Shown one piece after another: positions 8,053 through 57,614 of a DNA stretch of 64,000 bases. The position numbers and the translations under genes are program-made. The first letter of the stretch is position 1. The number at the start of each line of letters is the position of its first letter. Origin of the DNA: Leisingera aquaemixtae (GTDB lineage Bacteria; Pseudomonadota; Alphaproteobacteria; Rhodobacterales; Rhodobacteraceae); contig NZ_JAHVJQ010000002.1 in the NCBI RefSeq assembly GCF_019801145.1, positions 186,001-250,000 on the forward strand. The letters are read 5' to 3'. A model generated the notes under the pieces. It was not told the origin of the DNA. It saw only the letters and a list, made by a program, of their open reading frames with translations, and made no database searches.

Positions 8053-8100
8053 GCGCTGCCCGGTTGCAATCCATGCGGCGGCGCGTGCCGCCCAAAAGAA

Positions 8101-8127
8101 AAAGCCCGGGCAGCCGCCCGGGCTTTT
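8101..8127. terminator. Bidirectional terminator between lpxK and the DsbA-like gene
   Basis: A perfect 11-bp stem (AAAGCCCGGGC at 8101-8111 and its complement at 8116-8126) with a 4-base loop has A and T runs on its flanks. It sits between convergent genes and can serve both. Confidence 0.9.
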
Positions 8128-8148
8128 CATTCTTGCGGCCAGCCGCCC

Positions 8149-8820: not shown

Positions 8821-9344
8821 TTGAACCCCTTTCCTTGCGTTTTCTGTTTTGTCAGCACATTGCGCCCCAGGCGTTCCAGGGCGGCGCGCAAATCGTCATT
8901 TTCCACCCCGGCGGCTGCCTTGCTGGCCTCAGCCGCATCCTGCGGGTCCGGCTGCAGCGGCGCTTGCACCTTGGGGGCATATTTGAATTCCACGCGTCCG
9001 TCGGAAAATCCCGTCGGTGCCGTTTGCGTGATCCGCACCTTGGAGATGGCGTTGAAGCCATAGACCGCGTTCACCCGCTCGCGCAGGCGTTCCTTTTGCA
9101 TTTCCAGCATCGGCGCGTTGGCCCCGGTGGTCAGAACCGTCAGCGTGGCGCCAAAGGAGCCCCGCCCATAGCCGATGTTCACGGGACGGGCCATGGCAGC
9201 GATATCCGGCCCAGCGATCTCCTCCCAATGGGTGAGCAGCCGGGACACCGCGAATCCGCGGCTTTCCCCCGCTTTGCGGATCTGCTCGCTGAGGAGCTTG
9301 GAGGTCCGGGAGAACCCGCGTGTGGTGCTGCGCCTGAATGCCAT
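8817..9344 (-). CDS. DUF721 (DciA-like) protein
   Basis: This 175-residue protein has the DUF721 core: LTHWEEIAGPDIAAMARPVNIGYGRGSFGATLTVLTTGANAPMLEM, followed by the RERVNAVYGFNAISKVRI segment. DUF721 proteins include DciA, the ancestral loader of the replicative helicase DnaB. The C-terminal extension is charged and probably unstructured. The gene is divergent from mutY across an 84-base gap and overlaps the DsbA-like gene. A DciA role is inferred from the family; direct evidence is limited to the domain. Confidence 0.8.
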   Translation of the reverse strand: MAFRRSTTRGFSRTSKLLSEQIRKAGESRGFAVSRLLTHWEEIAGPDIAAMARPVNIGYGRGSFGATLTVLTTGANAPMLEMQKERLRERVNAVYGFNAISKVRITQTAPTGFSDGRVEFKYAPKVQAPLQPDPQDAAEASKAAAGVENDDLRAALERLGRNVLTKQKTQGKGFK

Positions 9345-44665: not shown

Positions 44666-45430
44666 ATGGCACAGGACCCCGCATTCGAGGACGTCTCCCT
44701 GCCGCTGTTCCCCGGCAGCGAGGAGGCTCCTGCGGCCCCGATCTCCCCCGGCCGCCTGCCCTCCTACATCAAGGACCACCGCGCCCGCCTGCGGGAGCGT
44801 TTCATGGCCGGCGGCGCCGCGGCGATGCCGGATTACGAGCTGTTGGAACTGGTCCTGTTCCGCTCCATCCCGCGCCGCGACGTGAAACCCTTGGCGCGGC
44901 AACTGCTTGATACCTTTGGAGATTTCAACCGCGTTGTGACAGCCCCACCGGAACGGCTGGCGCAAGTGACGGGCATCGGCGACGCGGTCATCACTGACCT
45001 CAAGGTGCTGGAGGCCGCCGCCCACCGCATGGCCCGCGCCCGGGTGATTCAGCGCCAGGTGATCTCCAGCTGGGACGCCCTTCTGGACTATTGCCACACC
45101 ACCATGGCCCACCGCGAAACCGAACAGTTCCGCATCCTGTTCCTGGACCGCAAGAACGTGCTGATCGCCGACGAGGAACAGGGCCGCGGCACCGTCGACC
45201 ACGTGCCCGTATACCCCCGCGAGGTCGCCAAACGCGCCCTGGAACTCAACGCCAGCGCCTTGATTCTGGTGCATAATCATCCGTCCGGCGACCCCACCCC
45301 CTCGGACAGCGACATCGGCATGACAGATCAGATCCAGGCCGCTTTGATTGCGCTGGGAATCACCCTGCATGACCATCTCATCATCGGAAAATCCACCGAA
45401 CTCAGCTTCCGCGCCCGGGGCTACCTGTAG
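44666..45430 (+). CDS. radC: RadC family JAB-domain protein
   Basis: This 254-residue protein has helix-hairpin-helix segments in its N-terminal half (LAQVTGIGDAVITDLKVLEAA). It ends in an MPN/JAB domain with the metal motif LVHNHPSGDPTPSDSD near residue 207. RadC proteins are widely linked to DNA repair and recombination by annotation, though the biochemical role is not settled. It is the last chromosomal gene before the island, 32 bases from the left att repeat. Upstream lies an 11-bp tandem repeat. Confidence 0.9.
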   Translation: MAQDPAFEDVSLPLFPGSEEAPAAPISPGRLPSYIKDHRARLRERFMAGGAAAMPDYELLELVLFRSIPRRDVKPLARQLLDTFGDFNRVVTAPPERLAQVTGIGDAVITDLKVLEAAAHRMARARVIQRQVISSWDALLDYCHTTMAHRETEQFRILFLDRKNVLIADEEQGRGTVDHVPVYPREVAKRALELNASALILVHNHPSGDPTPSDSDIGMTDQIQAALIALGITLHDHLIIGKSTELSFRARGYL

Positions 45431-45462
45431 CGGTTTCTGGCGTCATTATCAGCGGTTCAGGG

Positions 45463-45513
45463 AGGAAGTGGTGAGCCGTGCAGGATTCGAACCTGCGACC
45501 CAATGATTAAAAG
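45463..45513. repeat. attL of the tRNA-Lys island
   Basis: This matches 57491-57541 over 51 bp with a single difference (A at 45503 versus C at 57531). It contains the 3' part of tRNA-Lys from the anticodon loop to the CCA end, without the rest of the tRNA. Confidence 0.9.
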
Positions 45514-45629
45514 AAAGCCCTTTCGAGAAACCACGTAAAAATTGGCATACTCTGCATGAAACTTGCTATTGAAAAACTTCACAAGTTTCCATCAGTCATA
45601 CTGCTGCTTGTAGCTGGACAGATGGGGTG

Positions 45630-45647
45630 TTGCACCAATATTGCACC
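45630..45647. repeat. Left pair of TTGCACC repeats (candidate integrase arm sites)
   Basis: TTGCACC at 45630-45636 and 45641-45647 are spaced with an 11-bp period, 117 bases inside attL. An equally spaced pair lies inside attR. Confidence 0.6.
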
Positions 45648-45662
45648 AAAACTCACTTTCGG

Positions 45663-46187
45663 TCATTCTCCGATGTCTTGAGAACTTACTTGGCTGCTTT
45701 GATCCGCAGCAGAAACTTGGTACGGCACCATTTCAAGTATCACGCCCGCAGCATCTAGAATTTTGCGAGCGAATCTATAGTGATCTGACCATTTGTCATC
45801 ACGGTTAGAGGCGCCATGACCAGACGGCGCTACTAACCTAGTGATACCCGAAGCCACAATCGCCCGAGCGCAATCCGCGCAAGGAAAGAGCGTGCAGTAC
45901 ATAGTAGCTCCAACCAACGAAACTCCCCTCCGCTGAGCGTCATATATTGCGTTCCTTTCCGCATGCTCCAGCATGAAGTACTTCCAGGAAGGGTCGTCAG
46001 TTATCGCAAGGAAGCTTGCACTAGAAGAAAGCTGTAGCGCTGTTGGAGGGCTATTTGCCCCAACCGAAAGCACGGTACCTCTATCGTCCACGATCACCGC
46101 CCCTACTTGTCGATGCGGGTCATGGCTCTGTTGCCTAGCTTCATCGCTCAGACGTAAAAACTTCAAGTCGGTCTTTGAGATCGTCAT
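45663..46187 (-). CDS. Deoxycytidylate/cytidine deaminase family protein
   Basis: This 174-residue zinc deaminase has the HAE zinc/catalytic motif in LEHAERNAIYDAQRRG and the PCxxC pair in LFPCADCARAIVASGITR. These are typical of dCMP deaminases, as is the opening SHDPHRQVGAVIVDDRG. The ATG at 46187 follows AGGATG; a TTG five codons upstream is less likely. It is transcribed away from a membrane-anchored dCTP-deaminase-like gene with a 46-base gap between the start codons. Deaminases of nucleotide pools are known anti-phage effectors in other bacteria; that role is inferred here from the island context. Confidence 0.85.
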   Translation of the reverse strand: MTISKTDLKFLRLSDEARQQSHDPHRQVGAVIVDDRGTVLSVGANSPPTALQLSSSASFLAITDDPSWKYFMLEHAERNAIYDAQRRGVSLVGATMYCTLFPCADCARAIVASGITRLVAPSGHGASNRDDKWSDHYRFARKILDAAGVILEMVPYQVSAADQSSQVSSQDIGE

Positions 46188-46233
46188 TCTGCATCCTACC
46201 AACTGGTGGCAGAGGTTTGATAAAGGTTATTCG

Positions 46234-46977
46234 ATGACACTTCTAGCAGGGCTTCGCCTCAATTCAGCAAATCAATACTTCTCAGAAGGCGACCCAGTCC
46301 AATGCGGGTCAAGCTATGATCTAACGGTTGGGCAAATCATTGACGGGGAAGGGAAAAGCATACCAGGCCCGTATATATTGAAGCCAGGGCACATGGTGCA
46401 GGTCGTCACCAAGCAGGTCTTTCGCCTGCCTAAGACTGTAACGGGACACGTAACTTGCAAAACCACACTGACCAGAGACGGTATCTGGGCGCTTACAGTC
46501 GGTATCGTCGATCCAGGTTGGGATGCACCGATTGCTACAACTTTGCTGAACTTCGGAAAAGTCGATCATGTGGTTCAGATCGGTGACAAATTTCTAAGAG
46601 TGTCCTTCTTCGAACATGCTGAAGTTGAAGAGAAATTTAGACGAACAAAGCCAAATGAGCTGAACGGCTACATCAACAGTGTGCGGAAGAACGCGGCTGC
46701 TTTCTTCCCGAAAACTTTCCTGGACACAAAGAAGATCTCACAAGAGGCCGGAGAGACAGCTGTTCGCGGGATCCGCAATCAATTTGCAGTTTGGCTCCCC
46801 GTGGTTGCCGTCCTATTTGCTGTGCTGCAATTGTTTGTAGCCTTCGCTCCTTCCTATCTCCCTGGTTGGGGCGGTGCGTCCTTGGAGCAACTCCATGAAG
46901 TTGAGGCTGAACTGCAGATGCTTCGCGTAGAAGTTGACCAGCTTGAGAACTACATTGAGGCCAATGCCCCCCCCTAA
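46234..46977 (+). CDS. dCTP deaminase/dUTPase-fold protein with C-terminal membrane helix
   Basis: This 247-residue protein has a trimeric dUTPase/Dcd-type core in residues 1-135: SSYDLTVGQ, PGHMVQVVTKQVF, CKTTLTRDG and VDPGWDAPIATTLLNFGK. In E. coli Dcd the segment DPGWSGCIVLEFYN carries the catalytic glutamate; the same position here is Thr (residue 103), so catalysis may be lost or changed. A membrane helix lies at about 184-206 and a coiled coil at about 216-242. Membrane anchoring of this fold is unusual. The gene is divergent from a dCMP deaminase. A role as a nucleotide sensor or effector in defence is inference. Confidence 0.72.
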   Translation: MTLLAGLRLNSANQYFSEGDPVQCGSSYDLTVGQIIDGEGKSIPGPYILKPGHMVQVVTKQVFRLPKTVTGHVTCKTTLTRDGIWALTVGIVDPGWDAPIATTLLNFGKVDHVVQIGDKFLRVSFFEHAEVEEKFRRTKPNELNGYINSVRKNAAAFFPKTFLDTKKISQEAGETAVRGIRNQFAVWLPVVAVLFAVLQLFVAFAPSYLPGWGGASLEQLHEVEAELQMLRVEVDQLENYIEANAPP

Positions 46978-47124
46978 ATTGACGAGTTCCGACAGCCAAT
47001 AGGCGAGTCAGGCGGAACGTACATTTCACTGTGGCTGATTTGAGACCAATGGAAGCAATTACGCCTAGATCCGGTTGAAGCTTCCTACTCTGACCAGTTT
47101 CCTGTGCCTGGAAGGAATCATCGC

Positions 47125-48054
47125 ATGCCGACAAAAGTCTTAGAGTTTCATGGGTTTAAGCCGCTCTCTCAGGAAAGCAAAATGTTTGCTTCCCGACGTT
47201 GGTGCCCATTTGTTGACGACAAATGTAAAAAGGCCCGGAGCGGTGGCGCTTGTGCGCTGAAAGCACCGAAATCCGCTCCCGTGATCATCTGCCCAAATCG
47301 CTTGTACGGTAATCAATTTGAGGTGATTGGACGCATCGCGAGACAAGCATTCGGGGACGATTGCGAGCTTGTGACTGACCTAGATGCTGAGGCTAGGCGT
47401 AGAAACGGCACGTTGAGCGGACGCGAGGTCATCGTGTTCGGGCAGGGGTATAGCGGGGAAGTGGGTATCAAAGCCCCAGCGGCTGAAGGAGAATCCGGGT
47501 CTTTCAAAGTAGATTTTTTGCTGACTTCTATCGGGCCAGACCTTGAACCTGAGGCCATAGTGGCTGTCGAAGTCCAGACGATCGACACCACAAACAGCTA
47601 TAAAAAAGCATCAACTAGCTACTACGCTGAACAAAACCATCCAAGCAAATGGGGAGAAGGTGGAACCAACGCAGGTTTCAATTGGGAGAATGTTACTAAG
47701 CGCATCTTGCCCCAGATCATCTACAAGGGACATGCACTTCGACGAGAAAAGTTAGCTCGGCATGGCCTGTTTTTTGTGTTGCCAGATCCGGTTTTACAAA
47801 AAATTCGAACGCGCATTGGTAGCTCTCTCTTGGAGTACCCCAAAGGGCCGGGTACCGTTACTTTTCACTCCTATCAACTAGCAGACGAATGGACAGAGGC
47901 AGAACGCCCGATTGAGCTTGTAACGGAATTCACCACGACTGTTGAGCAAATAGCGTTTGCATTTGTCTCACCTCAAAACCTTCCCCCTCTGGGGATCTAT
48001 GAGGATACAATCTCTGCGAAACTTGCTGCCCTAAGTCGCAAAGCCACTCTGTGA
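47125..48054 (+). CDS. NotI-family restriction endonuclease
   Basis: This 309-residue protein resembles NotI. Four cysteines lie in the NotI order (CPF at 27, C34, C43, CPNR at 56), which in NotI bind iron. A PD-(D/E)XK core follows: KVDFLL (Asp130) and AVEVQTIDTTNSYK (Glu149-x-Gln151), matching the ExQ variant of NotI. The ATG at 47125 follows GGAAGGA. It is convergent with a C5-cytosine methylase 20 bases away, so the two form a type II restriction-modification pair. The target sequence is not known; NotI itself cuts an 8-bp GC site. Confidence 0.8.
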   Translation: MPTKVLEFHGFKPLSQESKMFASRRWCPFVDDKCKKARSGGACALKAPKSAPVIICPNRLYGNQFEVIGRIARQAFGDDCELVTDLDAEARRRNGTLSGREVIVFGQGYSGEVGIKAPAAEGESGSFKVDFLLTSIGPDLEPEAIVAVEVQTIDTTNSYKKASTSYYAEQNHPSKWGEGGTNAGFNWENVTKRILPQIIYKGHALRREKLARHGLFFVLPDPVLQKIRTRIGSSLLEYPKGPGTVTFHSYQLADEWTEAERPIELVTEFTTTVEQIAFAFVSPQNLPPLGIYEDTISAKLAALSRKATL

Positions 48055-48074
48055 CTGTCGGGAGGCAACGTTGC

Positions 48075-49214
48075 TCAGGCCATTGCGGCTTTTTGTGTTT
48101 GAGCGTCGTTTGAGCCTGCTTCGGCTTCCAGAATGGCTTTTCCGATGCACTTTCCCAGCAAAGGCGGGACGGCATTTCCTACTTGGACGAACTGCTCTGT
48201 CCTCGGACCGGTAAAATGAAACCAATCTGGGAATGACTGCAAACGCGCAGCCTCACGAACTGTAATGCTGCGGTCCTGCTCGGGGTGGATGTATGCCCCC
48301 CAGTGAATGTCGCACTTGGTGAGAACGGTGCAAGATAGACCCTCCCAACGCATGCGCCCATATCTTTTCGTGTGATCGCTTCGTTTAGCTCGCTGCATGC
48401 CCGCAGGCAAAAGCTCATGAGGCACATCTCGCCAGCTCCCACCTTGAGGAATGTGCTTCATGCGCTCGAGATTGATCGCACCTAGTTTAGATGCCGAATG
48501 ATTGTGCACCGAGCTCGACCCATTCCTCAGTTCAAGCTGATATTCAGACGTGGCTGGCGTGCGATAGTCGGGTATTCCTTTGTCTTCGCCGTTCATCAAA
48601 CTTGGCAAGTCGGACAGAGCATCGCGAATTGTAGTGAACGGCTTTCGATCCGGTCCGTGGGTTTTCTCAGGCCACACGATTGGAGCCCCTACTCTATTGC
48701 CAAGAAACACCACGCGCCGACGCTCTTGTGGGACGCCATACTCCTCAGCGCGCAAAATTTCAGCTTCGACGGTGTAGCCCAAGTTACGAATTCCAGCCAG
48801 AACAGCCTGGAAAGCTTCTCCTTCCCCGGCAGACATGATGCCCGTAACGTTTTCCATCACAAGCCATTTTGGCATCAGCCCTTCAACGATACGCAGGTAT
48901 TCCTTGAACAAGTGACTTCGTTCATCGTGCATGCCTCGTTGATGGTTGTATACCGAATAACCTTGGCAAGGCGGCCCACCAGCAAGCACATCTAGCTCAT
49001 ACTTTTTTAGCCCCGTCTCTCTCAGAAAATCTTGAGCGGAAAGGTCATAGATCGAGCCAGGCAAGAACTTTGCATCTGGGTGAGTTGCGGCGAACGTATT
49101 CCCTGCATGCGTGTCGATGTCATTTCCAGCTAAGACCTTGAAGCCAGCTTGTCTCAAACCTTCAGACAAGCCGCCAGCACCACAGAAAAGATCGATTACA
49201 CTTGGCCTGCTCAT
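48075..49214 (-). CDS. DNA (cytosine-5) methyltransferase
   Basis: This 379-residue C5 methylase shows the motifs in order: DLFCGAGGLSEGL (I), GGPPCQGYS (IV, catalytic Cys near residue 83), MENVTG (VI), QERRRVVFLGN (VIII) and VQVGNAVPPLLG (X). The recognition region between VIII and IX is of moderate size. It protects host DNA from the neighbouring NotI-like enzyme. The genes converge, so expression of the two is not simply coupled. The ATG lies at 49214 after an unremarkable leader. Confidence 0.92.
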   Translation of the reverse strand: MSRPSVIDLFCGAGGLSEGLRQAGFKVLAGNDIDTHAGNTFAATHPDAKFLPGSIYDLSAQDFLRETGLKKYELDVLAGGPPCQGYSVYNHQRGMHDERSHLFKEYLRIVEGLMPKWLVMENVTGIMSAGEGEAFQAVLAGIRNLGYTVEAEILRAEEYGVPQERRRVVFLGNRVGAPIVWPEKTHGPDRKPFTTIRDALSDLPSLMNGEDKGIPDYRTPATSEYQLELRNGSSSVHNHSASKLGAINLERMKHIPQGGSWRDVPHELLPAGMQRAKRSDHTKRYGRMRWEGLSCTVLTKCDIHWGAYIHPEQDRSITVREAARLQSFPDWFHFTGPRTEQFVQVGNAVPPLLGKCIGKAILEAEAGSNDAQTQKAAMA

Positions 49215-49558
49215 GATGCACTACCTACCTAGTCGATTTGCAGGGATTTCTGATAATGTGCCTGCATCTTGTCCACCCTTTTTTGCTTCATACAACCAGT
49301 TGTGCAGGCGCAAATCAACATTGGGAATAGGATAGAGCAGGTGTTCTTAATACGTTCTTATCGGCAGGTGATCTGCACTGCAAGGCCCACAATGGGAGAC
49401 TTTGAACCATGGTAGCCACCAACTCAGCATTCGCACGCATATCTAGTAGCCTGGAGACGAAGCCTGGGCCAGATTTCTATCACTTTCTTCTCCATAGCAT
49501 GTGAACTTCGTACGTTCGTTGTGCGTTTCTGCTTCCCGCTTTTGATTTCATCTCTGTG
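49215..49558. other. Non-coding gap between methylase and second integrase
   Basis: No gene is supported in these 344 bases. Two GTTCTTA words occur 11 bp apart at 49343 and 49354, and the sequence is A+T-rich, probably holding the methylase promoter. I see no clear attachment site for the second integrase. Confidence 0.5.
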
Positions 49559-50491
49559 TCAGAACAGTAAGCCTGTTGGGTTATCTTCGAACAGATTGGC
49601 CAACCTAATGTACCGTTCCATAGTCGCGCTGGATGCGTGTCCTGTCTGCCGTCGAACAGCATGCTCCGGAGCGCCTGCCATGATAGCACTCGTCACAAAG
49701 CCGGCTCGCAAGGAATGTCCTGAGTACTCATCCGGCTTCAAACCAATTCGCGCGACATGGCGTTTGACAATTTTCGCGACGGCTTCGTTTGAAAGCCTGC
49801 GCCTACTTATCCGTCCGCCCTTAAGACACGATTTGAAAGCTGCACCCTTTTGCGCACCCATTTCTGCAAGCCAAGCTTCCAAGAACCTGATTGGGCAGTA
49901 GCGGGTTCGGCCAAACTGGATAGCGACCAAGCGACCACATCCAGCCTGGTCAGTTTTACTACGCTTTATTGTCATGCGAACACCCGCGGGTACAAATTCG
50001 ATGTCTTCGACGTTGGTTCCCACCAGCTCAGACCGGCGCAGTCCGCCCGCAAACCCAATCGTTAGAAGGGCAGCGTCGCGCTTCCCGATGGTGCTTCCCG
50101 GCAAGCTATCCAGAATTTCCCGCAGGTGCTCGATGAGAAGTGGCTCTACAGCGCGTTGGGGTTTTCCATGAAGCCGGGCCAGACCTCGGACTGTAGAGAC
50201 CACGAGGCGGCTTTTGACGGGATTTGGCGTGTGTCCAAGGGTTGAATGTAGAGACGACAGAGAAGCCAGCTGCCGCTTGATGGTGGCGACCGTGCAATTG
50301 TTTGCACGGAAGGCAACGAACGCAGCGATCTGCTCGGGGGAAGATGGGATGGAGCCACCCCACTTCAAAAAGCTGGTTACATCGGACCTATATGCGCGGC
50401 GTGTGTTTGCTGCATAGGCCGCTTCCAGGAGGTCGTTCGCCCCAATTCTGCCGGGTGTGTTATCATCTGAGGGTTTCTTCAGGTCTCTCAT
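49559..50491 (-). CDS. Tyrosine recombinase/integrase (second integrase)
   Basis: This 310-residue tyrosine recombinase has an N-terminal core-binding domain (TRRAYRSDVTSFLKW). The catalytic residues are Arg in GFAGGLRRSELV, His-x-x-Arg in SGHSLRAGF, His in TGHASSATM and Tyr in ERYIRL. Its relation to the island boundaries is unclear because no att repeat is seen beside it. It follows the RarA-C-like gene by 24 bases on the same strand. One copy of the GTGCAA-N4-TTGCAC palindrome lies within it. It may be a remnant of an older element or a cargo recombinase. Confidence 0.9.
   Translation of the reverse strand: MRDLKKPSDDNTPGRIGANDLLEAAYAANTRRAYRSDVTSFLKWGGSIPSSPEQIAAFVAFRANNCTVATIKRQLASLSSLHSTLGHTPNPVKSRLVVSTVRGLARLHGKPQRAVEPLLIEHLREILDSLPGSTIGKRDAALLTIGFAGGLRRSELVGTNVEDIEFVPAGVRMTIKRSKTDQAGCGRLVAIQFGRTRYCPIRFLEAWLAEMGAQKGAAFKSCLKGGRISRRRLSNEAVAKIVKRHVARIGLKPDEYSGHSLRAGFVTSAIMAGAPEHAVRRQTGHASSATMERYIRLANLFEDNPTGLLF
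50290..50309. repeat. Palindrome copy 1 (CCGTGCAA-N4-TTGCACGG)
   Basis: Perfect 8-bp arms with spacer TTGT lie inside the second integrase gene. This is the longest-armed of four copies in the island. Confidence 0.85.
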
Positions 50492-50515
50492 GATTTTGCC
50501 TCCGATAATGGAAGG

Positions 50516-51619
50516 TTATCGGAGGTAGACGTGCAGAGCGTCGGCCCGACATTCGTTCAGGAGATCAAACTCGTCCCGCAGAATTGACATGGCCTCGGGC
50601 ACAGTACAGTCGGGAATACCCCATCCAAGGCCCGTAGCTTGGCATTTCAGTTCGGAGGCTAACGACCAATCGAGGCGGCGGCGCAATTGACCGCAGTCCA
50701 GCCGGAACACCAGCGCTCCAACCACCTTCGATCTAGAAACCGAGCCATCCATCGCATCTGCCAGAAACGCTTTCATACGAGACGACCTGCTAGCAAATTT
50801 CCTGAAACCAGCTAGGCCGATCCGTGTGTGCTGTCCCAGAACCCAAACCGGTACTGCTGTATCGTCGGGAGCGGGCAATAAAGGGTCATCAATTTCTGTT
50901 GATACTTGATCGCCTTCCGAACCCGCGACGAACAACATCGGGGAAAGAATTGAGCCAGTGCGCAGAAGGCCCAAAATCGCGGTTTCTTGAACAGCATTGG
51001 ATGCGGCTTCAACACCGATTACCTGTATTGCCTCTAGCCACCTTCGCCGCCTGATACCAACTGCCGGTACATCTCCCGCGCAGCCGGCAAGCAGAGCTAA
51101 GCGATTTGCTCTTTCAAGCACCCCGCCTTCTGTTTGAAGACCAAAGGGCAGCGATCCTGGGAAATTTTCGTCTGCATACATGGTGCGAGCCTCTCGCAGG
51201 CTGATTGAACGGGAGATGACGTCGTAAAGGTCATCAGGCGTTCTGTCCTTCGTTGAGGAGCACATGATCTCAATGAGCGCTGTTGCGACTTTTAGACATC
51301 CCCCCAGTTGTTCACGCAATTCCGGTTCTGTTCCCGCTAGGATCGCCATCATTGTGACGTCCAAATCAGCTACGCCAATGTCTTCCATCCCGATAACCGG
51401 CAAGCGTTTCCAGAAATACGCAGGGTGATTCTCGAGAAGGTAGCTCGCCGCTTGCCAAGCAAGCTCAGGTTCATCCCTTCGAATTGATTTCTGTAGCAGG
51501 CTGGCCGCCAGGTACCGGTCTAAAACTGGACTATGAACCAGGCATCGCGGTTTGAAGCGGGACACCAGCCCATACATCTTGTCCCGAACTGCTGTCTCGT
51601 AGTGATCGTGTGCAATCAA
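50516..51619 (-). CDS. Protein resembling the RarA/MgsA C-terminal region
   Basis: This protein of about 367 residues has an N-terminal part (ASLLQKSIRRDEPELAWQAASYLL, ...RLPVIGMEDIGVADLD) that recalls the C-terminal oligomerisation region of RarA/MgsA (HKSxRGSDPDAA...RLVRxASEDIGLAD). The AAA ATPase part of RarA is absent: no Walker motifs are seen. The start is uncertain; TTG at 51619 follows AGGAGGGG, while a TTG at 51661 is possible. It is encoded upstream of the second integrase with a TTCCGACA repeat cluster and a palindrome in its upstream gap. The function is unknown; a link to replication or recombination is suggested only by the similarity. Confidence 0.55.
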   Translation of the reverse strand: MIAHDHYETAVRDKMYGLVSRFKPRCLVHSPVLDRYLAASLLQKSIRRDEPELAWQAASYLLENHPAYFWKRLPVIGMEDIGVADLDVTMMAILAGTEPELREQLGGCLKVATALIEIMCSSTKDRTPDDLYDVISRSISLREARTMYADENFPGSLPFGLQTEGGVLERANRLALLAGCAGDVPAVGIRRRRWLEAIQVIGVEAASNAVQETAILGLLRTGSILSPMLFVAGSEGDQVSTEIDDPLLPAPDDTAVPVWVLGQHTRIGLAGFRKFASRSSRMKAFLADAMDGSVSRSKVVGALVFRLDCGQLRRRLDWSLASELKCQATGLGWGIPDCTVPEAMSILRDEFDLLNECRADALHVYLR

Positions 51620-51746
51620 AAGTTGCCCCTCCTGAAGTTCCGGAGGGCTATAGATCCCCAATCCAGTCTAATCTTTACGATCCTCTGGTCAATTAAAGTT
51701 ATTATTTTCAATTACTTGATAGAAATCACATCTTCTCCTCCATTTT

Positions 51747-51764
51747 CGTGCAATCAGTTGCACG
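51747..51764. repeat. Palindrome copy 2 (CGTGCAA-N4-TTGCACG)
   Basis: Perfect 7-bp arms with spacer TCAG lie in the non-coding region upstream of the RarA-C-like gene. Confidence 0.85.
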
Positions 51765-51796
51765 GCAATCTGCAAGCCTCCAAAGGGGATCGTTCC

Positions 51797-51928
51797 TTCC
51801 GACATTTCCGACAACTCGGATGCCGCTAGCTGCCGTATTCCGACAAAGCTTCGGCCTTAGCATCCCTTGGACTGGCACCACGTTGCGAGTTTCGTCGGAA
51901 ATTCAACAGTTCCGACAATCAGCCGACA
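51797..51928. repeat. Cluster of TTCCGACA repeats (iteron-like)
   Basis: TTCCGACA occurs at 51797, 51806, 51838 and 51910, an inverted 7-base match lies at 51894, and a partial copy (GCCGACA) at 51922. Together with palindrome copy 2 it fills the 51620-51970 gap, which holds no gene. Such direct repeats can be regulator or replication-initiator sites. Confidence 0.6.
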
Positions 51929-51970
51929 AGCAGTGGAAGATACATTTATCTCTCAGTCACCCCACACAAT

Positions 51971-52363
51971 TTATTTTGCGGATGTCACCCCAGCAGGCCC
52001 ATCGGCGTCGCCAACAAACACAACAAACTGTCCATTCGAAGCTTTACTCAGTTCATAGAAGTCACGGCTGTTGCAGGAGACTTCATACCTGTCAGTACGG
52101 AGGTTGTGGACAGCGTACACAGGGGGAGGGCAAGGCCGCCCGCTACTTGTCAACGCTCGTCTGATGACCTTACCCTCTGAGTCGCTGAGTACAGTCATCC
52201 CTGGATGCTCTCCGGGTTTGTACGGGTCATAGGGGCCGCTAGGTTGATCCTCATACTTTCCCGCAAAATACAGAACACTTACGACCACTCCTCCGATTAG
52301 CCCCCAACGGATGGACTTCTTCCAATCGTCTGCATCTAGGCGACTGTCCTTCGAAGGTTCCAT
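51971..52363 (-). CDS. Hypothetical single-pass membrane protein
   Basis: This protein of about 130 residues has one hydrophobic helix (IRWGLIGGVVVSVLYFAG) near residue 20. The likely extracytoplasmic domain of about 90 residues (KYEDQPSGPYDPYKPGEHPG, RALTSSGRPCPPPVYAVHNLRTDRYEVSCN) contains two cysteines. The ATG at 52363 is favoured because GGAGAAG precedes it; an ATG four codons upstream also fits. The family is not recognised. It could be an immunity or effector membrane protein of a defence locus, which is speculation. Confidence 0.55.
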   Translation of the reverse strand: MEPSKDSRLDADDWKKSIRWGLIGGVVVSVLYFAGKYEDQPSGPYDPYKPGEHPGMTVLSDSEGKVIRRALTSSGRPCPPPVYAVHNLRTDRYEVSCNSRDFYELSKASNGQFVVFVGDADGPAGVTSAK

Positions 52364-52383
52364 CTGCTTCTCCATTTGGTTTC

Positions 52384-52396
52384 ATGCTGTCAGCAT
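52384..52396. repeat. Short inverted repeat upstream of the membrane-protein gene
   Basis: ATGCTG-T-CAGCAT, a 13-base inverted repeat, sits 21 bases before the start of the minus-strand membrane gene. It is a possible operator. Confidence 0.4.
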
Positions 52397-52565
52397 TTTG
52401 GTTTTCTGAGGTTGAAGCGTTCCTCGACCACATGGCCTTGAAATCTATGCCTCTGCTACCTGGTCTCCTCTGCACCTAGGGTGGCGATGCAGAAAATAGG
52501 TTCTTAACACGAATGTATGTTATAACCGGTCGATTTAAAACAGGTGAAGTCGCACAGATTCCTGT

Positions 52566-52820
52566 GTGAAGACGACTGTGAAAAGCCCCCTACGAGACGT
52601 GCTTGCTCGCAACATGAGAATGCTGCGGGCGGAGCGGGGCTGGAGCCAGGAGTTTCTAGCCGGGGAAGCAAAATTGAACCGGACTTATCTCAGTGCTGTA
52701 GAGAGGTCCGAGCAGAACATATCACTGGATAACATCTACAAGGTTGCGGTTGCCCTCGGAGTTCCTGCCAGAGATCTTCTTGACCCTTTGCTTACGCAAA
52801 GTAAAAAACAATCTCTCTAG
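52566..52820 (+). CDS. XRE-family (Cro/C1-type) helix-turn-helix regulator
   Basis: This 84-residue protein is almost entirely one HTH domain: VLARNMRMLRAERGWSQEFLAGEAKLNRTYLSAVERSEQNISLDNIYKVAVALGV. It starts with GTG at 52566; no strong ribosome site is seen. Small XRE proteins in restriction-modification and defence islands act as controllers of expression. The GTGCAA-N4-TTGCAC palindromes or the ATGCTG-CAGCAT repeat could be its operators; this is not shown. Confidence 0.9.
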   Translation: MKTTVKSPLRDVLARNMRMLRAERGWSQEFLAGEAKLNRTYLSAVERSEQNISLDNIYKVAVALGVPARDLLDPLLTQSKKQSL

Positions 52821-52923
52821 GCTCCCTTATCTTCCGTGCCAAGCTGACCATTCAAGATTACCAAATTCGTGCAATCCATGTAAGTGTTGCAACCGGCTTC
52901 AACTCGATGCCTGTAGTTAGCGC

Positions 52924-53796
52924 CTACCCATTTATCTTATAAACCTTGGATCTTACACCCAGAAGTTTTGCCCTGGCTGCGAGTTCTGAGGGCAGTTCTC
53001 GCTCAGTCAAGAGGATCGCGCGTACGGCTACTTCCACTGGCAGGCGTGTTGCCCGGACCACCTCTCGATACTTTATGCACTGGTATATCCCGCGGCGGAG
53101 ATCATCGTTGCTCGACAAGCAGGACTTGACCTCTACAACAGCGAACTCCTCTCCTCGCGTGAAGAGAACATCAACCCGATCGCCGGACAGCAGATCGCTT
53201 TCCGCAACTCCTTCGTAGCCCTTCGGGAGGCCGATCTCGCGTGGATTGTCTCGAGCCCACTCCTTCAGCCGTTGGTGCTGCTTACTCTCGCCCCTGCCGC
53301 GCGGAAATTCCGTTTCGGCTTGCTTGCCGTCCTGCTCCGTGAACCTCTTTCGCTCAAGCTTGCTAGGGCGGTCGCCAAAGGCCTCCTGAAAAATTCGATT
53401 CCAGCCTTCATACTGTTTGACCGCCTCTCGAACGTTCCTCACGACATCAAGCTTCTGACCCTTGTCTAATTGCTCCCACCGTTGACCACGCTTCTCTCGC
53501 CAAAGATTGTCATAGTATCCTGCAAAGCCCTTGCCCGGAATTCCCAAGGTGTTGGTAACTATTGCGTTGATAGGAGGGGCATTCTTCGCAACGGACATAA
53601 TCTCGTTCATCATCTTGCCAGCAACACCGCCGATGTGGAGGCTAAAGATCTTAGTGGTCCCTAACTCGCGTTCCAGCATCTCGGCGGCTTCACCGTAGGT
53701 AACGAAGGGCTCATCCATCGTTTCCAGTTTCTCTAGCAGCAGGGAGAGCAAGTAAGGTGCACCTTTGCGATTGAGCCAATTTCTCTCGTAAGTCAT
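52924..53796 (-). CDS. PD-(D/E)XK nuclease-like protein
   Basis: This protein of about 290 residues has an N-terminal winged-helix-like region (YGEAAEMLERELGTTKIFSLHIGGVAGKMM) and a C-terminal nuclease core. The core contains ESKQHQRLKEWARDNP, RVDVLFTRGEEFAVVEVKS (Asp-x14-Glu-x-Lys) and a following YQCIKYREV helix. It lacks a helicase or methylase partner. It lies 93 bases after the reverse-transcriptase gene on the same strand, and a stem-loop sits between them. The ATG at 53796 follows AGGTGGGG; an ATG seven codons upstream is possible. Confidence 0.75.
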   Translation of the reverse strand: MTYERNWLNRKGAPYLLSLLLEKLETMDEPFVTYGEAAEMLERELGTTKIFSLHIGGVAGKMMNEIMSVAKNAPPINAIVTNTLGIPGKGFAGYYDNLWREKRGQRWEQLDKGQKLDVVRNVREAVKQYEGWNRIFQEAFGDRPSKLERKRFTEQDGKQAETEFPRGRGESKQHQRLKEWARDNPREIGLPKGYEGVAESDLLSGDRVDVLFTRGEEFAVVEVKSCLSSNDDLRRGIYQCIKYREVVRATRLPVEVAVRAILLTERELPSELAARAKLLGVRSKVYKING

Positions 53797-53848
53797 TCGC
53801 GCACCCCACCTTTCCATCAGTTTCTCACATGAGCATTCAAGTAATGGG

Positions 53849-53872
53849 GGAAGTCAATGCTGGGTGACTTCC
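53849..53872 (-). other. Stem-loop between RT and nuclease genes
   Basis: GGAAGTCA at 53849-53856 pairs with TGACTTCC at 53865-53872 around an 8-base loop, extendable by G-T pairs. It has no T-run, so it looks less like a terminator than like an RNA structural element. Confidence 0.45.
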
Positions 53873-53889
53873 TTGGCGGCAACAGCGTA

Positions 53890-55101
53890 TCAGAGCACAG
53901 TTTTTTTAATCTTAGCAAACTTATCCCAATGGAATTGCTTACCTTCTTTCCATGACGGGTATCCATTCACGATGGCCCAATGCTTCTTTTCGAACCATCT
54001 AAAGCGGACCTTCCTTTGGCTCTTCGACAGGCTCGGAGAGCTCAGAACCTTGTAAGTGGTTCGACGAAGTCTTTTGGCCTTCTTCTCTGCCTCTTCAGAC
54101 CACCAAACGTGTAGTCCAAGCGGGTTCTTTGGCACCAGATGGTAGCCCAAGAACGGAAATGCTTCATTGGGAGCATAAATCTTGGGGAACTGTTTTGCTT
54201 TGAGCGGCCCGGCAGGGTGTTGATGGAGCAACTTCTGAAGTATGTCGCGTAGTTCAAAGGCCGCGTTTTCACTTTTGCAAAGACAAAGATAGTTGTCCGC
54301 ATAGTTCACGATACGCCACGCTCCATCCGGGACGTTCTTAAGAACCCATGCAAGCAACAACTCTGCTGCAAAAGGCGAGACCTTCGAGCCTTCAGTCAAA
54401 CCCGACCGGGCCGATCCCCAATCGGCATCCATCAGCCCGAATTTTTCAAGGGGCGTTTCAGGAAGACCGTCGAGGTCCAAGCAAATCTTCTCTACCTCCT
54501 TCTCATACTGGGGAGAGAGAACGATATTGAGCTCATCACCAGAAAGTACATTGGTGACAACTCTTTCGGGCAGGGAGAGGTACTTTGCCACCCCTTCCCT
54601 GTCGAAACTCTTGAAGCAGTGATATACGTCTATCTCAAAGACGTGCCGGTAACCCTTGCGGTAAGCCCGTAGCAAATGCTTGATTGCGGCTTCCCGCCCG
54701 CCATTGAACTGGTACTGTTCCGCCTGAAGATCCCAACCAGCCAACAACAGGTTGCGCACTAGGATCTGGCGGGCCCGGTTTTCCAGCCCGAAACTCAGAA
54801 TGTACCGGTAGCTTCCCCACGTGTGGTCAGCACAATCAGGTTTCAACTTAGGATGCAGACGAACCTCTTCCGCGCAAGGTGTCCAAAGATGAAGCTTCCG
54901 TGCAATTGATTGCACGTCCTCTTCGCTGAATTGCTTCCCCAAATCTTTAACCGCCTCTTTCACCGCAGCGTAGCGACAAGCAAAGCTGTTCAAGTACTCC
55001 CTGCTGGCAGCGCGAAAGCCCTTGCCCTTGCCATGCGCCATTTGGACTTTGCTCCAAAGACGCCGCTCCTGGTGGAAAAGTTTTGATGATCTGACCGGCA
55101 T
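53890..55101 (-). CDS. Reverse transcriptase with YADN catalytic box
   Basis: This protein of about 403 residues has recognisable RT motifs: A in FEIDVYHCFKSFD (Asp near residue 158), B in LTEGSKVSPFAAELLLAW (about 235-252), C in IVNYADNYLCL (about 265-275) and D/E in PKIYAPNEAFPFLGYHLV. In motif C the second aspartate of YADD is Asn, read clearly as GAC-AAC. The ATG at 55101 follows GGGAG; a further ATG at 55182 would overlap the AlpA-like gene. No group II intron maturase or DGR accessory gene is seen. Single-gene RTs in defence islands are often anti-phage (DRT/Abi types); that role is inferred. Confidence 0.85.
   Translation of the reverse strand: MPVRSSKLFHQERRLWSKVQMAHGKGKGFRAASREYLNSFACRYAAVKEAVKDLGKQFSEEDVQSIARKLHLWTPCAEEVRLHPKLKPDCADHTWGSYRYILSFGLENRARQILVRNLLLAGWDLQAEQYQFNGGREAAIKHLLRAYRKGYRHVFEIDVYHCFKSFDREGVAKYLSLPERVVTNVLSGDELNIVLSPQYEKEVEKICLDLDGLPETPLEKFGLMDADWGSARSGLTEGSKVSPFAAELLLAWVLKNVPDGAWRIVNYADNYLCLCKSENAAFELRDILQKLLHQHPAGPLKAKQFPKIYAPNEAFPFLGYHLVPKNPLGLHVWWSEEAEKKAKRLRRTTYKVLSSPSLSKSQRKVRFRWFEKKHWAIVNGYPSWKEGKQFHWDKFAKIKKTVL
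54899..54916. repeat. Palindrome copy 3 (CGTGCAA-N4-TTGCACG)
   Basis: Perfect 7-bp arms with spacer TTGA lie inside the 5' part of the RT gene. Confidence 0.85.
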
Positions 55102-55124
55102 TCTTGGCTCCCAGAACTGAGAGT

Positions 55125-55140
55125 GTGCAAACAATTGCAC
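55125..55140. repeat. Palindrome copy 4 (GTGCAA-N4-TTGCAC), 24 bp before the RT start
   Basis: Perfect 6-bp arms with spacer ACAA; the 16 bases are the exact reverse complement of copy 1's core. It is placed as an operator would be for the RT gene. Confidence 0.85.
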
Positions 55141-55157
55141 GATCCACTCGTTGACGA

Positions 55158-55508
55158 TTACTGGTCCGCTGCCGTGCGGCATTTGACGGGCTGCATGCGC
55201 TGCTGCTCAACCCAATTATCAAACTCATCTAAGTCGATCAGAATTTTTCGCCCAATGCGCAATATGGCGGGTGCAAGCCCGTTGCCAGGGACAACTGCGC
55301 CACCCGTACCGAGACGGTCCTCCGCTTGAAAGATCGCGTGGCGCAGAAAACTCTCAGTTGCCCACCCATATTTTTTCAACGTCAGCATCTGCTTGACAGT
55401 CACGAGTTTGCGCTCCGACACAGGTGCGTTTTCGTTCAGTGCTGTTCCGTGATTATAGTGAGAGGGTGATTTCAGTGCGCTGGTCTGCGGTTTGTCTTTC
55501 TTGAGCAT
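55158..55508 (-). CDS. AlpA/excisionase-like small DNA-binding protein
   Basis: This 116-residue protein has a basic N terminus and a region KLVTVKQMLTLKKYGWATESFLRHAIFQ that fits an excisionase/MerR-like helix-turn-helix. It is followed by RIGRKILIDLDEFDNWVEQQ, the typical AlpA/Xis ending. The ATG at 55508 has an excellent AGGAGG before it. It lies upstream of the RT gene on the same strand. It may control excision of the island or its cargo promoters. Confidence 0.75.
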   Translation of the reverse strand: MLKKDKPQTSALKSPSHYNHGTALNENAPVSERKLVTVKQMLTLKKYGWATESFLRHAIFQAEDRLGTGGAVVPGNGLAPAILRIGRKILIDLDEFDNWVEQQRMQPVKCRTAADQ

Positions 55509-55663
55509 CGAACTATCCTCCTTGAAAACTCGATGCCCCAATTTTTTGTGGGTATTTTGGTGCTGTAAACAAACCCACCAAGAGAAAAAACATTATTTTA
55601 CAATATTTTAAGAACGTCTGGCTGGGTATTTATTAGCGACGTTTGATGCCCCAAAGACCCAAG

Positions 55664-56302
55664 CTAACCACGCCATTTAGCGATTCGCTTTCGAAGCGTT
55701 TCAGCTTTAGCAGCGTGTTGCTTACCGACTAATCGTTTCGCTAAGTCGTCTGCCAACTCACGGGTGCTCATCTTTGCAGCCGCTGCGCCGCAATCTGCCA
55801 ACAGTTTCTCAAACTCTGCTTTGATCGCGGCCCACTTCATTTCTGCTGGTGACTTCTTGGTACTAAGGAACCCCGTCGAAGACTTAGCTTTTTTCTTCGC
55901 GTAATAGTCTTCGGCTTTCTGCAAGTATCCTGTGGTATCGGGCCACTTCTTCAATGCCCACGTCACGAAGGTCCGCGTACTCATCATAATATCACGAGCA
56001 TCCTTCACCTCTAATGGTAAAGGCTGCGCTGGGTGGAGCGGATGTTCCGGGATTTCTCCCCTCAACGCCCTCAATGCTACAAGAAACGGGCGCCTAGTGT
56101 AGTCGTAAACCTCTGGCTCAGGCTGAGTATCCCACTGCATATACCCCTTACCAACGGGCTCCTCCTTAAGTGCCGGATTCACCTTTGCTACCAGGCAGCA
56201 CGCTGTGTGAAGGTCGATGAAGTTTCGTTGGAAGTATTTTTTCGTGGCTTCAACATAGTCGCTATCGGTCATGTCGAGTGACCATTGGATGTCGCTATTC
56301 AT
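55664..56302 (-). CDS. Hypothetical protein next to the integrase
   Basis: This protein of about 212 residues has no recognised motif. The N-terminal third contains AACCLVAKVNP-like sequence and a Trp-rich stretch (GYMQWDTQPEPEVYDY). The C-terminal half is Lys/Ala-rich and probably helical (KKAKSSTGFLSTKKSPAEMKWAAIKAEFEKLL, KRLVGKQHAAKAETLRKRIAKW). The ATG at 56302 overlaps the integrase end by eight bases; a GTG at 56314 is possible. Its overlap with the integrase suggests a role in the element's own biology. Confidence 0.6.
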   Translation of the reverse strand: MNSDIQWSLDMTDSDYVEATKKYFQRNFIDLHTACCLVAKVNPALKEEPVGKGYMQWDTQPEPEVYDYTRRPFLVALRALRGEIPEHPLHPAQPLPLEVKDARDIMMSTRTFVTWALKKWPDTTGYLQKAEDYYAKKKAKSSTGFLSTKKSPAEMKWAAIKAEFEKLLADCGAAAAKMSTRELADDLAKRLVGKQHAAKAETLRKRIAKWRG

Positions 56303-57353
56303 CGCCCAACACACCCTTCATAGTCTTCTCGAGAATAGTCTTGGTGTGGTCGTCACTCAGGTGCGCGTACCTGGATGCCATCTGAAACGACTTGTGCCCA
56401 AGGACGGCTGCAATTTCAGGCACTGAACCCCCATCCATAGCAATGTAGCTCGCTGCGGTATGCCTGAGGTCATGGAAACGGAAATCCTCTAGACCAGCTT
56501 CTTCAACCGCGCGGTACCAAGCGGACTTGATGTCAATTGGACGCAGGCCGCTACGGCCAGGAAACACGAGACCCGAGTTTGCCTCTTTCTGTTTGTAGAG
56601 CTGTTTTAGCCTATCCAAGATAGGCACAAGTAGATGCGTAGATCGCCGTGTGCCATTCTTTGTCTCTTCTATGATGACTTGCCCGGTTTCCAGGTTCACC
56701 CGATCCCAGTCTAGCTCCAGAATTTCCCGTCTGCGCAACCCCGTGGTAATCGCAATCAAAACGATGGTTTCAAGGAACTGGTTTTCGCTTTTGGAGCAAG
56801 CGGAGAGAAGGGCTACTCGCTCGGCTGCGTTCAAGAACCTCACTCTTCCTTGGGGTTCCTTCAGCTTCTTGACCCGCTTCATCGGGTTTTGCTCCAGCCA
56901 TCCGTATTCCCGAACTGTGATCTCGAGTACATGGTGGAGGGCCGCCCAGTAGCGGTTCACAGTCGCGTTTGAAACATTCCCTCCGCGTCTGCCACGATGC
57001 TCCGAGATAGAAGTCCTTGCCTTCAAGAGCCGGTCGGTCGTGACCTCAGAAAGCTTCAAGTCGCCAATGAGTGAGTTCCAAACTGACAGTTGCTGCTTCT
57101 GGTCCTTGGCCGACTTCTTGTCCGGTAGAACCTCGAGCACATAGCGATCTATGGCGTCCGCCAATGTGTGCTTTTTCGCTTCAGATCCAATCGGTCTCTT
57201 TCCAGCGTCGATTCCTGCTTCAATCTGCCTAGCCCAAGCTTCAGCATCGCTTTTGCGATCAAAGTATGCCGACTGCTGCTCATAGCCCTTGCGGCGAACC
57301 TGGGCTCGCCAACGAAAACCTTTCGCACTTTGCACTCTTTGAACAGACGCCAA
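56295..57353 (-). CDS. Tyrosine integrase of the tRNA-Lys island
   Basis: This phage-type integrase of about 352 residues has the arm-binding N terminus (VQRVQSAKGFRWRAQVRRKGYEQQSAYFDRKSDAEAWA). The catalytic residues are Arg in TGLRRREILELDW, His-x-x-Arg in FHDLRHTAASY, His in LGHKSFQMASRYAHL and Tyr in RYAHL. The TTG at 57353 is chosen because GGAG lies upstream and the protein then starts MASVQRV, as is usual for the family. A frame open to 57431 would run over the TTGCACC arm repeats. It is adjacent to attR and the tRNA. Confidence 0.88.
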   Translation of the reverse strand: MASVQRVQSAKGFRWRAQVRRKGYEQQSAYFDRKSDAEAWARQIEAGIDAGKRPIGSEAKKHTLADAIDRYVLEVLPDKKSAKDQKQQLSVWNSLIGDLKLSEVTTDRLLKARTSISEHRGRRGGNVSNATVNRYWAALHHVLEITVREYGWLEQNPMKRVKKLKEPQGRVRFLNAAERVALLSACSKSENQFLETIVLIAITTGLRRREILELDWDRVNLETGQVIIEETKNGTRRSTHLLVPILDRLKQLYKQKEANSGLVFPGRSGLRPIDIKSAWYRAVEEAGLEDFRFHDLRHTAASYIAMDGGSVPEIAAVLGHKSFQMASRYAHLSDDHTKTILEKTMKGVLGDE

Positions 57354-57411
57354 GCTCGCCACTCCGTTGGCAATGTTGGTTATCGTCAAGGATAGGGGGA
57401 TTTGTGGAGAT

Positions 57412-57429
57412 TTGCACCGTTTTTGCACC
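57412..57429. repeat. Right pair of TTGCACC repeats (candidate integrase arm sites)
   Basis: TTGCACC at 57412-57418 and 57423-57429 have the same 11-bp period as the left pair, 61 bases inside attR and upstream of the integrase start. Confidence 0.6.
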
Positions 57430-57490
57430 AAAAACCGTGTCAGCCCAGAAGGCTTATCCTGCTAGGCTTGTAGGTATTTGATTTTTAGGT

Positions 57491-57541
57491 AGGAAGTGGT
57501 GAGCCGTGCAGGATTCGAACCTGCGACCCACTGATTAAAAG
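57491..57541. repeat. attR of the tRNA-Lys island
   Basis: This is the right copy of the 51-bp repeat. It forms the 3' half of the intact tRNA-Lys plus six bases beyond the CCA end. Confidence 0.9.
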
Positions 57542-57572
57542 TCAGTTGCTCTACCAACTGAGCTAACGGCCC
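57497..57572 (-). tRNA. tRNA-Lys(TTT)
   Basis: A 76-base tRNA read on the minus strand has acceptor start GGGCCGT, D arm AGCTCAGTTGGTAGAGC, and anticodon arm ACTGA-CTTTTAA-TCAGT with anticodon TTT. The T arm contains GGTTCGAATCC and the CCA end is encoded. It is intact although it is the island's attachment site, because the island restores its 3' half. Confidence 0.97.
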
Positions 57573-57585
57573 ACTTCTTCGTCGC

Positions 57586-57614
57586 GGTCTAAGTGTTTTT
57601 CCCAGAAGGTTCAA
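57586..57614 (-). promoter_or_regulatory. Promoter of tRNA-Lys
   Basis: In minus-strand reading TTGAAC (57614-57609) and TAGACC (57591-57586) are 17 bases apart. The -10 box ends 13 bases before the tRNA. Confidence 0.55.

Follow-up and report, generated by a model that had tools for sequence, protein, structure and literature searches.

An integrative element with a reverse transcriptase gene

The window analysed here, a stretch of 64,000 nucleotides from Leisingera aquaemixtae (contig NZ_JAHVJQ010000002.1, positions 186,001 to 250,000), contains an integrative element inserted at a tRNA-Lys gene, and within it a reverse transcriptase (RT) gene whose motif C reads YADN, with an asparagine in place of the second catalytic aspartate (Table 1). 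Comparison with related loci gives good support to the view that this RT belongs to the core genes of a group of related integrative islands, with a conserved xDN motif C (x, any residue) and without a nuclease partner.

The RT gene is intact, with recognisable motifs A (IDVYHCF), B (EGSKVSP) and C (NYADN) followed by FLGY. The second motif C Asp is usually invariant in RTs; its replacement by Asn, reported by an earlier reading made from the sequence alone (here the sequence-only reading), is real. The probable start is the ATG at 55101 (residue M28 of the open frame), which has GGGAG upstream and close to which the starts of the homologues fall. The Pfam RVT_1 score, 28.6 bits, is slightly below the cutoff of 29.6, and this is the sole RVT_1-like gene in the 4.88-Mb genome at E<=0.001.

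The attachment (att) repeats that bound the element are 58 nt long and 95% identical. Empty sites, in which both flanks join at one 58-nt copy, were found in 7 of 20 congeneric genomes; in the other 13 the left flank was unaligned past the repeat region or the contig ended. Together the att repeats, the tRNA-Lys gene and the empty sites indicate site-specific integration, as in phage-inducible chromosomal islands (PICIs) and P4-like islands. The GC content is about 50-54% inside the element versus 60-68% outside. From the tRNA end, the gene order is integrase, open reading frame (ORF) 2, helix-turn-helix (HTH) gene, RT, P0002, a small XRE-like gene (recognised by eye) and a 134-aa ORF, followed by a 381-aa MgsA_C-like gene with a second recombinase, a C5 methyltransferase, a NotI-like gene and a dCTP deaminase-like gene.

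Table 1. Features of the integrative element in the window, listed from the tRNA-Lys end
Feature	Position	Strand	Remarks
Integrative element	45456..57541	.	12,028 bp, repeat start to repeat start
Right att repeat	57484..57541	.	overlaps the 3' end of tRNA-Lys(TTT), 57497-57572 (-)
Tyrosine integrase, 378 aa	56295..57431	-	Phage_integrase 104.7 bits
ORF2, 216 aa, no assigned function	55664..56314	-	start overlaps integrase stop
Excisionase/AlpA-type HTH protein, 127 aa	55158..55541	-	HTH_17 E=0.017, below cutoff; position matches HTH genes of relatives
Palindrome copy, between HTH stop and likely RT start	55125..55140	.	exact
Reverse transcriptase with YADN motif C	53890..55182	-	open frame 430 aa; likely coding part 53890-55101, 403 aa
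Palindrome copy within RT gene	54900..54915	.
AAC codon, Asn297 of YADN	54292..54294	-	codon read and alignment
PD-(D/E)XK-like protein P0002	52924..53817	-	likely start 53796; cargo, no conserved RT partner
Palindrome copy upstream of 381-aa gene	51748..51763	.
MgsA/RarA C-terminal-like protein, 381 aa, cargo	50516..51661	-	MgsA_C sub-threshold in L033 homologue
Palindrome copy within second recombinase gene	50292..50307	.
Second tyrosine recombinase, 310 aa	49559..50491	-	paired with 381-aa gene
C5 cytosine methyltransferase, cargo	48075..49214	-	232 bits
NotI-like restriction endonuclease, cargo	47104..48054	+	NotI E=9e-4, sub-threshold
dCTP deaminase/dUTPase-like protein, far element end	45973..46977		DCD 33.1 bits, cutoff 27
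Left att repeat	45456..45513	.	direct repeat and empty site

A separate RT family with a conserved asparagine

Whole-genome searches took in 21 genomes of the same genus, sets of 394, 385, 390, 398 and 129 genomes, and 75 genomes of one other family, and recovered relatives of the window RT at 40% identity or lower. The family comprises 15 intact alphaproteobacterial members and one gene (L056) split by an insertion sequence (IS), that is, 16 loci including the window. The membership threshold was about E<=5e-30 against the profile then in use; L004 (3.6e-10 when first found, with the single protein as query) and the split gene of L056 (1.9e-14) were entered from below it. No further relatives were added from the 21 genomes of the genus or the 75 of the other family, and none were found when plasmids, phages, genome contigs and viral contigs were searched with one sequence, by plasmid searches with L053 and L055, or by a viral-contig search with an alignment query. 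In genome contigs an alignment query returned two loci, L005 and L006 (records of L002 and L003). The split RT gene of L056 (8610-12382) carries an insertion that we take to be IS66-like, and both of its halves can still be recognised.

For comparison, 44 ORFs were gathered from the non-family matches, those of the 129-genome and 75-genome searches staying out, and 40 were kept after length and near-identity filters. In a tree built without motif C, and with no reference sequences of unknown group (UG) RTs, retrons or diversity-generating retroelements (DGRs) among its RTs, 12 family members separated from these 40 RTs with a branch support of 100/100; the same support was obtained for 15 members against 12 of those other RTs. 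Motif C is xDN in 10 of the 15 intact members, as well as in the split gene, versus DD in 39 of the 40 other RTs and DA in the remaining one. YADN was found in the window, L005, L006, L051, L053 and L054, FADN in L052 and L117, CFDN in L055 and the downstream piece of L056, and HCDN in L058, while the members with DD carry YEDD (L004), YGDD (L008) or YVDD (L009, L115 and L116). This distribution requires at least two changes, placed on the starred branches of the tree, indicating that motif C switched between states on several occasions, through repeated gain or through reversal. The outgroup RT L028 has YADA.

The main outcome that the sequence-only reading named as speaking against it, homologues with YADD and an Asn peculiar to this strain, did not arise; xDN is instead common among the relatives, so that the Asn characterises a deep RT lineage in which it is conserved and is not a strain quirk. 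The 12-row family alignment shows no variation at R126, D185 (motif A), G261, G265, S269, D296 (the first Asp of motif C) and L315, and downstream of motif C most members have a stretch resembling P-x-G-x-(L/F/I). A dead enzyme would not be expected to retain these residues.

Recurrent neighbours of the RT

In 13 of the 16 loci the RT has a tyrosine integrase gene at most 3 kb away, and in 15 of them at most 6.5 kb away (the distance in L056 was measured from the downstream piece), compared with none of 20 control RT loci, which were judged by a biased profile, as it was built from 11 family-locus integrases. Five of the control contigs were shortened (L118, L119, L121, L124 and L128). The integrases of the RT loci fall into several clusters that look unrelated to each other. 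ORF reading, with RT start codons chosen by the analyst, placed an excisionase/AlpA-type HTH gene upstream of the RT, no further than about 600 nt away, in 13 of the 16 loci; a small ORF stands between the two genes in L052, L055 and L056. The exceptions were L032, with a different HTH, L053, with a divergent one, and L077, where none was seen. Seven of nine HTH genes from RT elements pass a Pfam cutoff, and those of the window and L032 fail. Other elements have an ORF in the position of ORF2, but homology to ORF2 was not found.

Seven of the 16 loci (window, L032, L033, L053, L055, L077 and L115) have a tRNA gene no more than about 600 nt from the integrase, and clustering detected no gene besides the RT common to the loci of all 15 relatives. 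With the integrase and the excisionase/AlpA-type HTH gene as neighbours, a part in the biology of the element is indicated at least as strongly as one in defence.

The L034 (16310) and L056 (15152) elements are both near a tRNA-Leu(CAG) gene and adjoin a similar gene, presumably NAD-epimerase-like, which is also found downstream of L170, an element lacking the RT. These common surroundings suggest a shared integration site.

Class placement of the RT

The best named profile for the window RT was TIGR04416 (group II), with 49 bits against a cutoff of 300. Pfam detected RVT_1 alone, with no maturase domain, Rfam detected no group II intron RNA in 45400-57600, and motif C is YADN, not YxDD. By these tests the RT does not fall among the group II intron RTs, a placement that would have spoken against the sequence-only reading, although the group II profile remains the best named one. 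Among the PADLOC profiles of UG and defence-associated RTs (DRTs), the best match of the window was a partial one to UG26, with 20.9 bits, and the best UG score among ten relatives was 54.7 bits (L009, to UG17); UG26, UG4 and UG17 are weakly similar. Profiles of RTs associated with clustered regularly interspaced short palindromic repeats (CRISPR) gave weak matches as well. Among ten window proteins scanned, no cas1 or cas2 neighbours were found, and no match to SLATT (Pfam). Rfam covers few retrons; it gave no match to a retron RNA in the element, where no RNA besides the tRNA reached its family cutoff. On profile scores, which are weak throughout, the RT would be assigned to none of the group II, UG/DRT and CRISPR classes; the placement among known groups that the sequence-only reading proposed as a check yielded weak similarities, together with a family separate from the other RTs compared.

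The closest known systems share some of these traits. UG17/DRT10 and other UG RTs are also orphan bacterial island RTs, with weak profile similarity to the window RT and a tyrosine recombinase sometimes adjacent; unlike them, the window RT scores low, has an xDN motif C and showed no SLATT gene in the window, the adjacent SLATT protein being the defining trait of UG17/DRT10 according to PMC8934634 and PMC12632851. G2L4 RTs are free-standing group II-like RTs with a lineage-specific change in motif C, described as YIDD (PMC4244168, PMC12337344). They alter the residue before DD and keep both Asp, whereas the window RT has YADN, and their context differs. In Foldseek the G2L4 RT was the top match of the window RT model, and group II RTs scored practically equal; the model, made from 3 sequences, is weak (predicted local distance difference test score, pLDDT, of 55), so these fold matches are a hint only. 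Full-text literature searching, on titles and abstracts, returned no description of this RT family or of its island layout.

Palindromes dispersed in the elements

The palindrome GTGCAA-N4-TTGCAC occurs in exactly four copies in the 4.88-Mb genome, all of them within the element, and the reversed control pattern in none. Two of the copies lie between genes and the other two inside them; about 84% of the element is coding. Other RT elements carry palindrome types of their own, of 13-18 bp: GTGAAC-N4-GTTCAC in L051 and L052 (3 exact copies each), L054 (5) and L053 (one); TGCAAC-N2-GTTGCA in L055 (6) and L056 (2); TGCAAT-N2-ATTGCA in L115 (5) and L116 (2); CGCACC-N-GGTGCG in L034 and L035 (3 each); GTGCAA-N4-TTGCAC in L031 (2); and TTTGCA-N6-TGCAAA in L032 (2). 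The window type is unlike that of its closest RT relatives, L034 and L035.

The copy number was reached by none of 200 shuffles in the window, L035, L051, L052, L054, L055 and L115. A significant palindrome family, under a threshold set after seeing the data (no shuffle reaches the count), was therefore present in 7 of 15 RT loci, with L117 set aside, versus none of 19 elements without the RT (Fisher p 0.0012); shuffles were first-order Markov resamples, 60 for each of the RT-less elements. Seven of the 16 loci (window, L034, L035, L051, L055, L115 and L116) have a palindrome of their own element's type 150 nt or less from the chosen RT start, and L056 has one 254 nt upstream of the RT. Of the control RT loci, L120 and L134 had 2 dyad copies, reached by 0 of 30 shuffles. 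The repeats of L117 resemble a CRISPR array: its RT (FADN) and the repeat array that it adjoins are at 6498-9204, and the same locus has an ORF at 324-2009 that we take to be cas-like.

Genes in the RT position of elements lacking it

The integrase of L051 was searched in 120 genomes, of which 37 had matches, and 19 of the 45 listed places were fetched; the known RT element in G038 was passed over, as were matches that were short, weaker or at contig ends. The RT profile had no match in any of these 19 elements; two of their loci, L169 and L175, are only about 3 kb long. An AlpA-type profile matched 15 of the 19, the match in L184 being to a long doubtful frame. This profile was built from seven RT-element genes, which are thus counted by construction, and their independent support is the Pfam check.

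After the AlpA-type gene, L174 and L187 have a Toprim primase-like gene and a DUF3987 gene, and L173 a VapE-domain protein; L180 has Toprim and DUF3631 without a recognised AlpA-type gene. The Toprim, DUF3987, DUF3631 and VapE profiles had no match in the 16 RT loci, and no pri-rep replication genes were found among the window proteins scanned; the local profiles, made from one to three sequences, may miss distant versions. The order reported for Gram-negative PICIs is int - AlpA - pri-rep - ori, with replication after AlpA expression requiring pri and int (PMC6092414). The RT elements resemble these PICIs in their site-specific integration, an integrase near an HTH/AlpA-type gene, small size and accessory cargo, and some RT-less sister elements carry primase or VapE-like genes in the corresponding slot. 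They differ in that the RT stands where PICIs have the primase or initiator, and no origin was identified in the window element. From these positions we infer that the RT may replace the replication module.

Possible roles of the RT

Known roles of bacterial RTs are in introns, retrons, DGRs, CRISPR systems, repair and phage defence. The RT described here may be a new kind of replication enzyme, and not half of a two-gene defence pair. The reading that we favour, tentatively and at a little short of an even chance, is that it has a replication or priming role on the excised element, serving its replication or maintenance. The RT would be a functional polymerase of palm fold, starting or performing DNA synthesis on that element, for instance in the manner of a primase. 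In the window it is part of a block formed by integrase, ORF2, excisionase/AlpA-type HTH gene and RT, and it occupies the slot in which some sister islands have primase/helicase genes. Asp185 of motif A and Asp296 of motif C would hold the metals, and the second motif C position, which points outward from the active site in solved RTs, would tolerate Asn; the dispersed palindromes specific to the element, including the copy in the RT leader, would act as control or start sites of the RT.

Several reports are consistent with such an enzyme. The second Asp of YxDD is described as facing outward in G2L4, group II and human immunodeficiency virus RTs (PMC12337344), and RTs of several classes, including group II and CRISPR RTs, as priming DNA synthesis de novo (PMC10415136). 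The birnavirus polymerase VP1, also a palm polymerase with Asn for the second motif C Asp (ADN), is reported to be highly active without added primer (PMC3121795); VP1 is a viral permuted RNA polymerase, and no homology is claimed. By this analogy, and given its conserved residues, the window RT is probably catalytic. A bolder version, which we consider unlikely, is that this class of islands swapped its primase-helicase module for an RT working with a single motif C Asp (xDN) that starts synthesis at hairpin-forming palindromes, making them RT-driven DNA replicons.

A number of observations weigh against a replication role. Profiles recognised a primase or helicase in only 4 of the 19 RT-less elements; five others (L169, L170, L172, L176 and L179) have a winged-helix protein of unassigned role, L171 has another unassigned protein, and the remaining nine gave no profile match; the slot may simply receive insertions of any kind. 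The window integrase differs in type from the one by which the RT-less elements were found, the window HTH is below the Pfam cutoff, and no replication origin was identified in the element. The named D-to-N mutants in PMC10415136, which alter both motif C Asp, are inactive. No repeated dyad was found in L033, L053 and L077, and two of the 20 control RT loci have multiple copies of one dyad, reached by 0 of 30 shuffles (5 copies in L123, 66-69 nt apart like a CRISPR array, and 7 in L128, irregular and GC-rich). The palindromes could be operators of an unseen regulator, and a cargo rich in restriction genes suits defence. What the comparisons show is the RT family with its conserved Asn, the borders of the element, the recurrent neighbours, the genes in the slot and the palindromes; the RT activity, the replication role and the binding of palindromes are inferred.

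There is a sizeable minority chance that the RT serves anti-phage defence, in the manner of DRT or abortive infection (Abi) RTs, near the integrase end of defence-rich islands, with the HTH protein as regulator and the Asn tuning activity. Restriction-modification or nuclease-like cargo is present in several loci (in the window by Pfam, in others by reading), the UG26, UG4 and UG17 profiles are weakly similar, and DRT10/UG17 operons are described as sometimes adjoining a tyrosine recombinase that is dispensable for defence (PMC12632851). This sits poorly, however, with the low UG scores of the window RT and its relatives, the lack of a SLATT match or of an Rfam RNA besides the tRNA, the absence of a partner gene common to the relatives' loci, and the constant place of the RT by the integrase and HTH gene while the cargo varies. 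Rather improbable is a non-catalytic or weakly catalytic RT that binds nucleic acid and regulates the element through the palindromes, whether in DNA or as hairpins in RNA, its own leader among them. The palindromes close to the RT start, the types common within L051-L054, L055/L056, L115/L116 and L034/L035, and the lack of a significant family in the RT-less elements would fit such a binder; but a dead enzyme would not be expected to keep G265/S269 of motif B, the Asp of motif A and the first Asp of motif C invariant, the window type differs from that of L034 and L035, and the sites are explicable by an unseen transcription factor.

We regard as very unlikely a domesticated repair RT like G2L4, acting on breaks in the element or host: the Foldseek match and the changed motif C of the G2L4 RTs suggest it, but the model is weak and matches group II RTs practically equally, G2L4 retains both Asp, and the context here is specific to mobile elements. 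The two-gene defence module of RT and nuclease proposed by the sequence-only reading is hardly credible. The RT gene and P0002 are adjacent and co-directional in the window, but the ORFs of the 15 other RT loci gave no homologue of P0002, the 5-7 kb around each of its six plasmid homologues yielded no family RT, and P0002 has its own apparent ribosome-binding site. The module was therefore rejected, P0002 not being a conserved partner in RT loci, nor the RT near P0002 homologues.

If the replication reading is correct, this RT family, linked to the integrase and the switch gene in small islands, would do an ordinary replication job and would offer a direct system for testing the in vitro findings of DNA synthesis priming by RTs. 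The conserved xDN is a natural test of the need for the second motif C Asp in RTs.

The downstream gene and the cargo region

In an alignment of four homologues of P0002, E177/H181, D213/D216, E229/K231 and Q246 are invariant, a pattern that we take to be that of PD-(D/E)XK enzymes. No Pfam family passes for P0002, and its single-sequence model, with a pLDDT of 39, is too poor for proving the fold. The stem-loop suspected of marking a non-coding RNA in the 93-base gap between both genes does exist (8 bp, 53849-53872). The RNA itself was rejected as unsupported, as the 104-nt gap region folds no better than shuffles (z -0.31) and gave no Rfam match at E<=1.

Similar-looking nuclease-like proteins, with a D...ExK pattern recognised by eye, are encoded near the RT in L033 (6461-7654) and L116 (10934-12088); they had no match to P0002 and no significant Pfam match. 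In the cargo region, the MgsA/RarA C-terminal-like gene (366-383 aa) and a tyrosine recombinase gene form a two-gene unit in three RT elements, namely the window (49559-51661), L033 (3782-5898) and L115 (13398-15938), and in no other RT locus.

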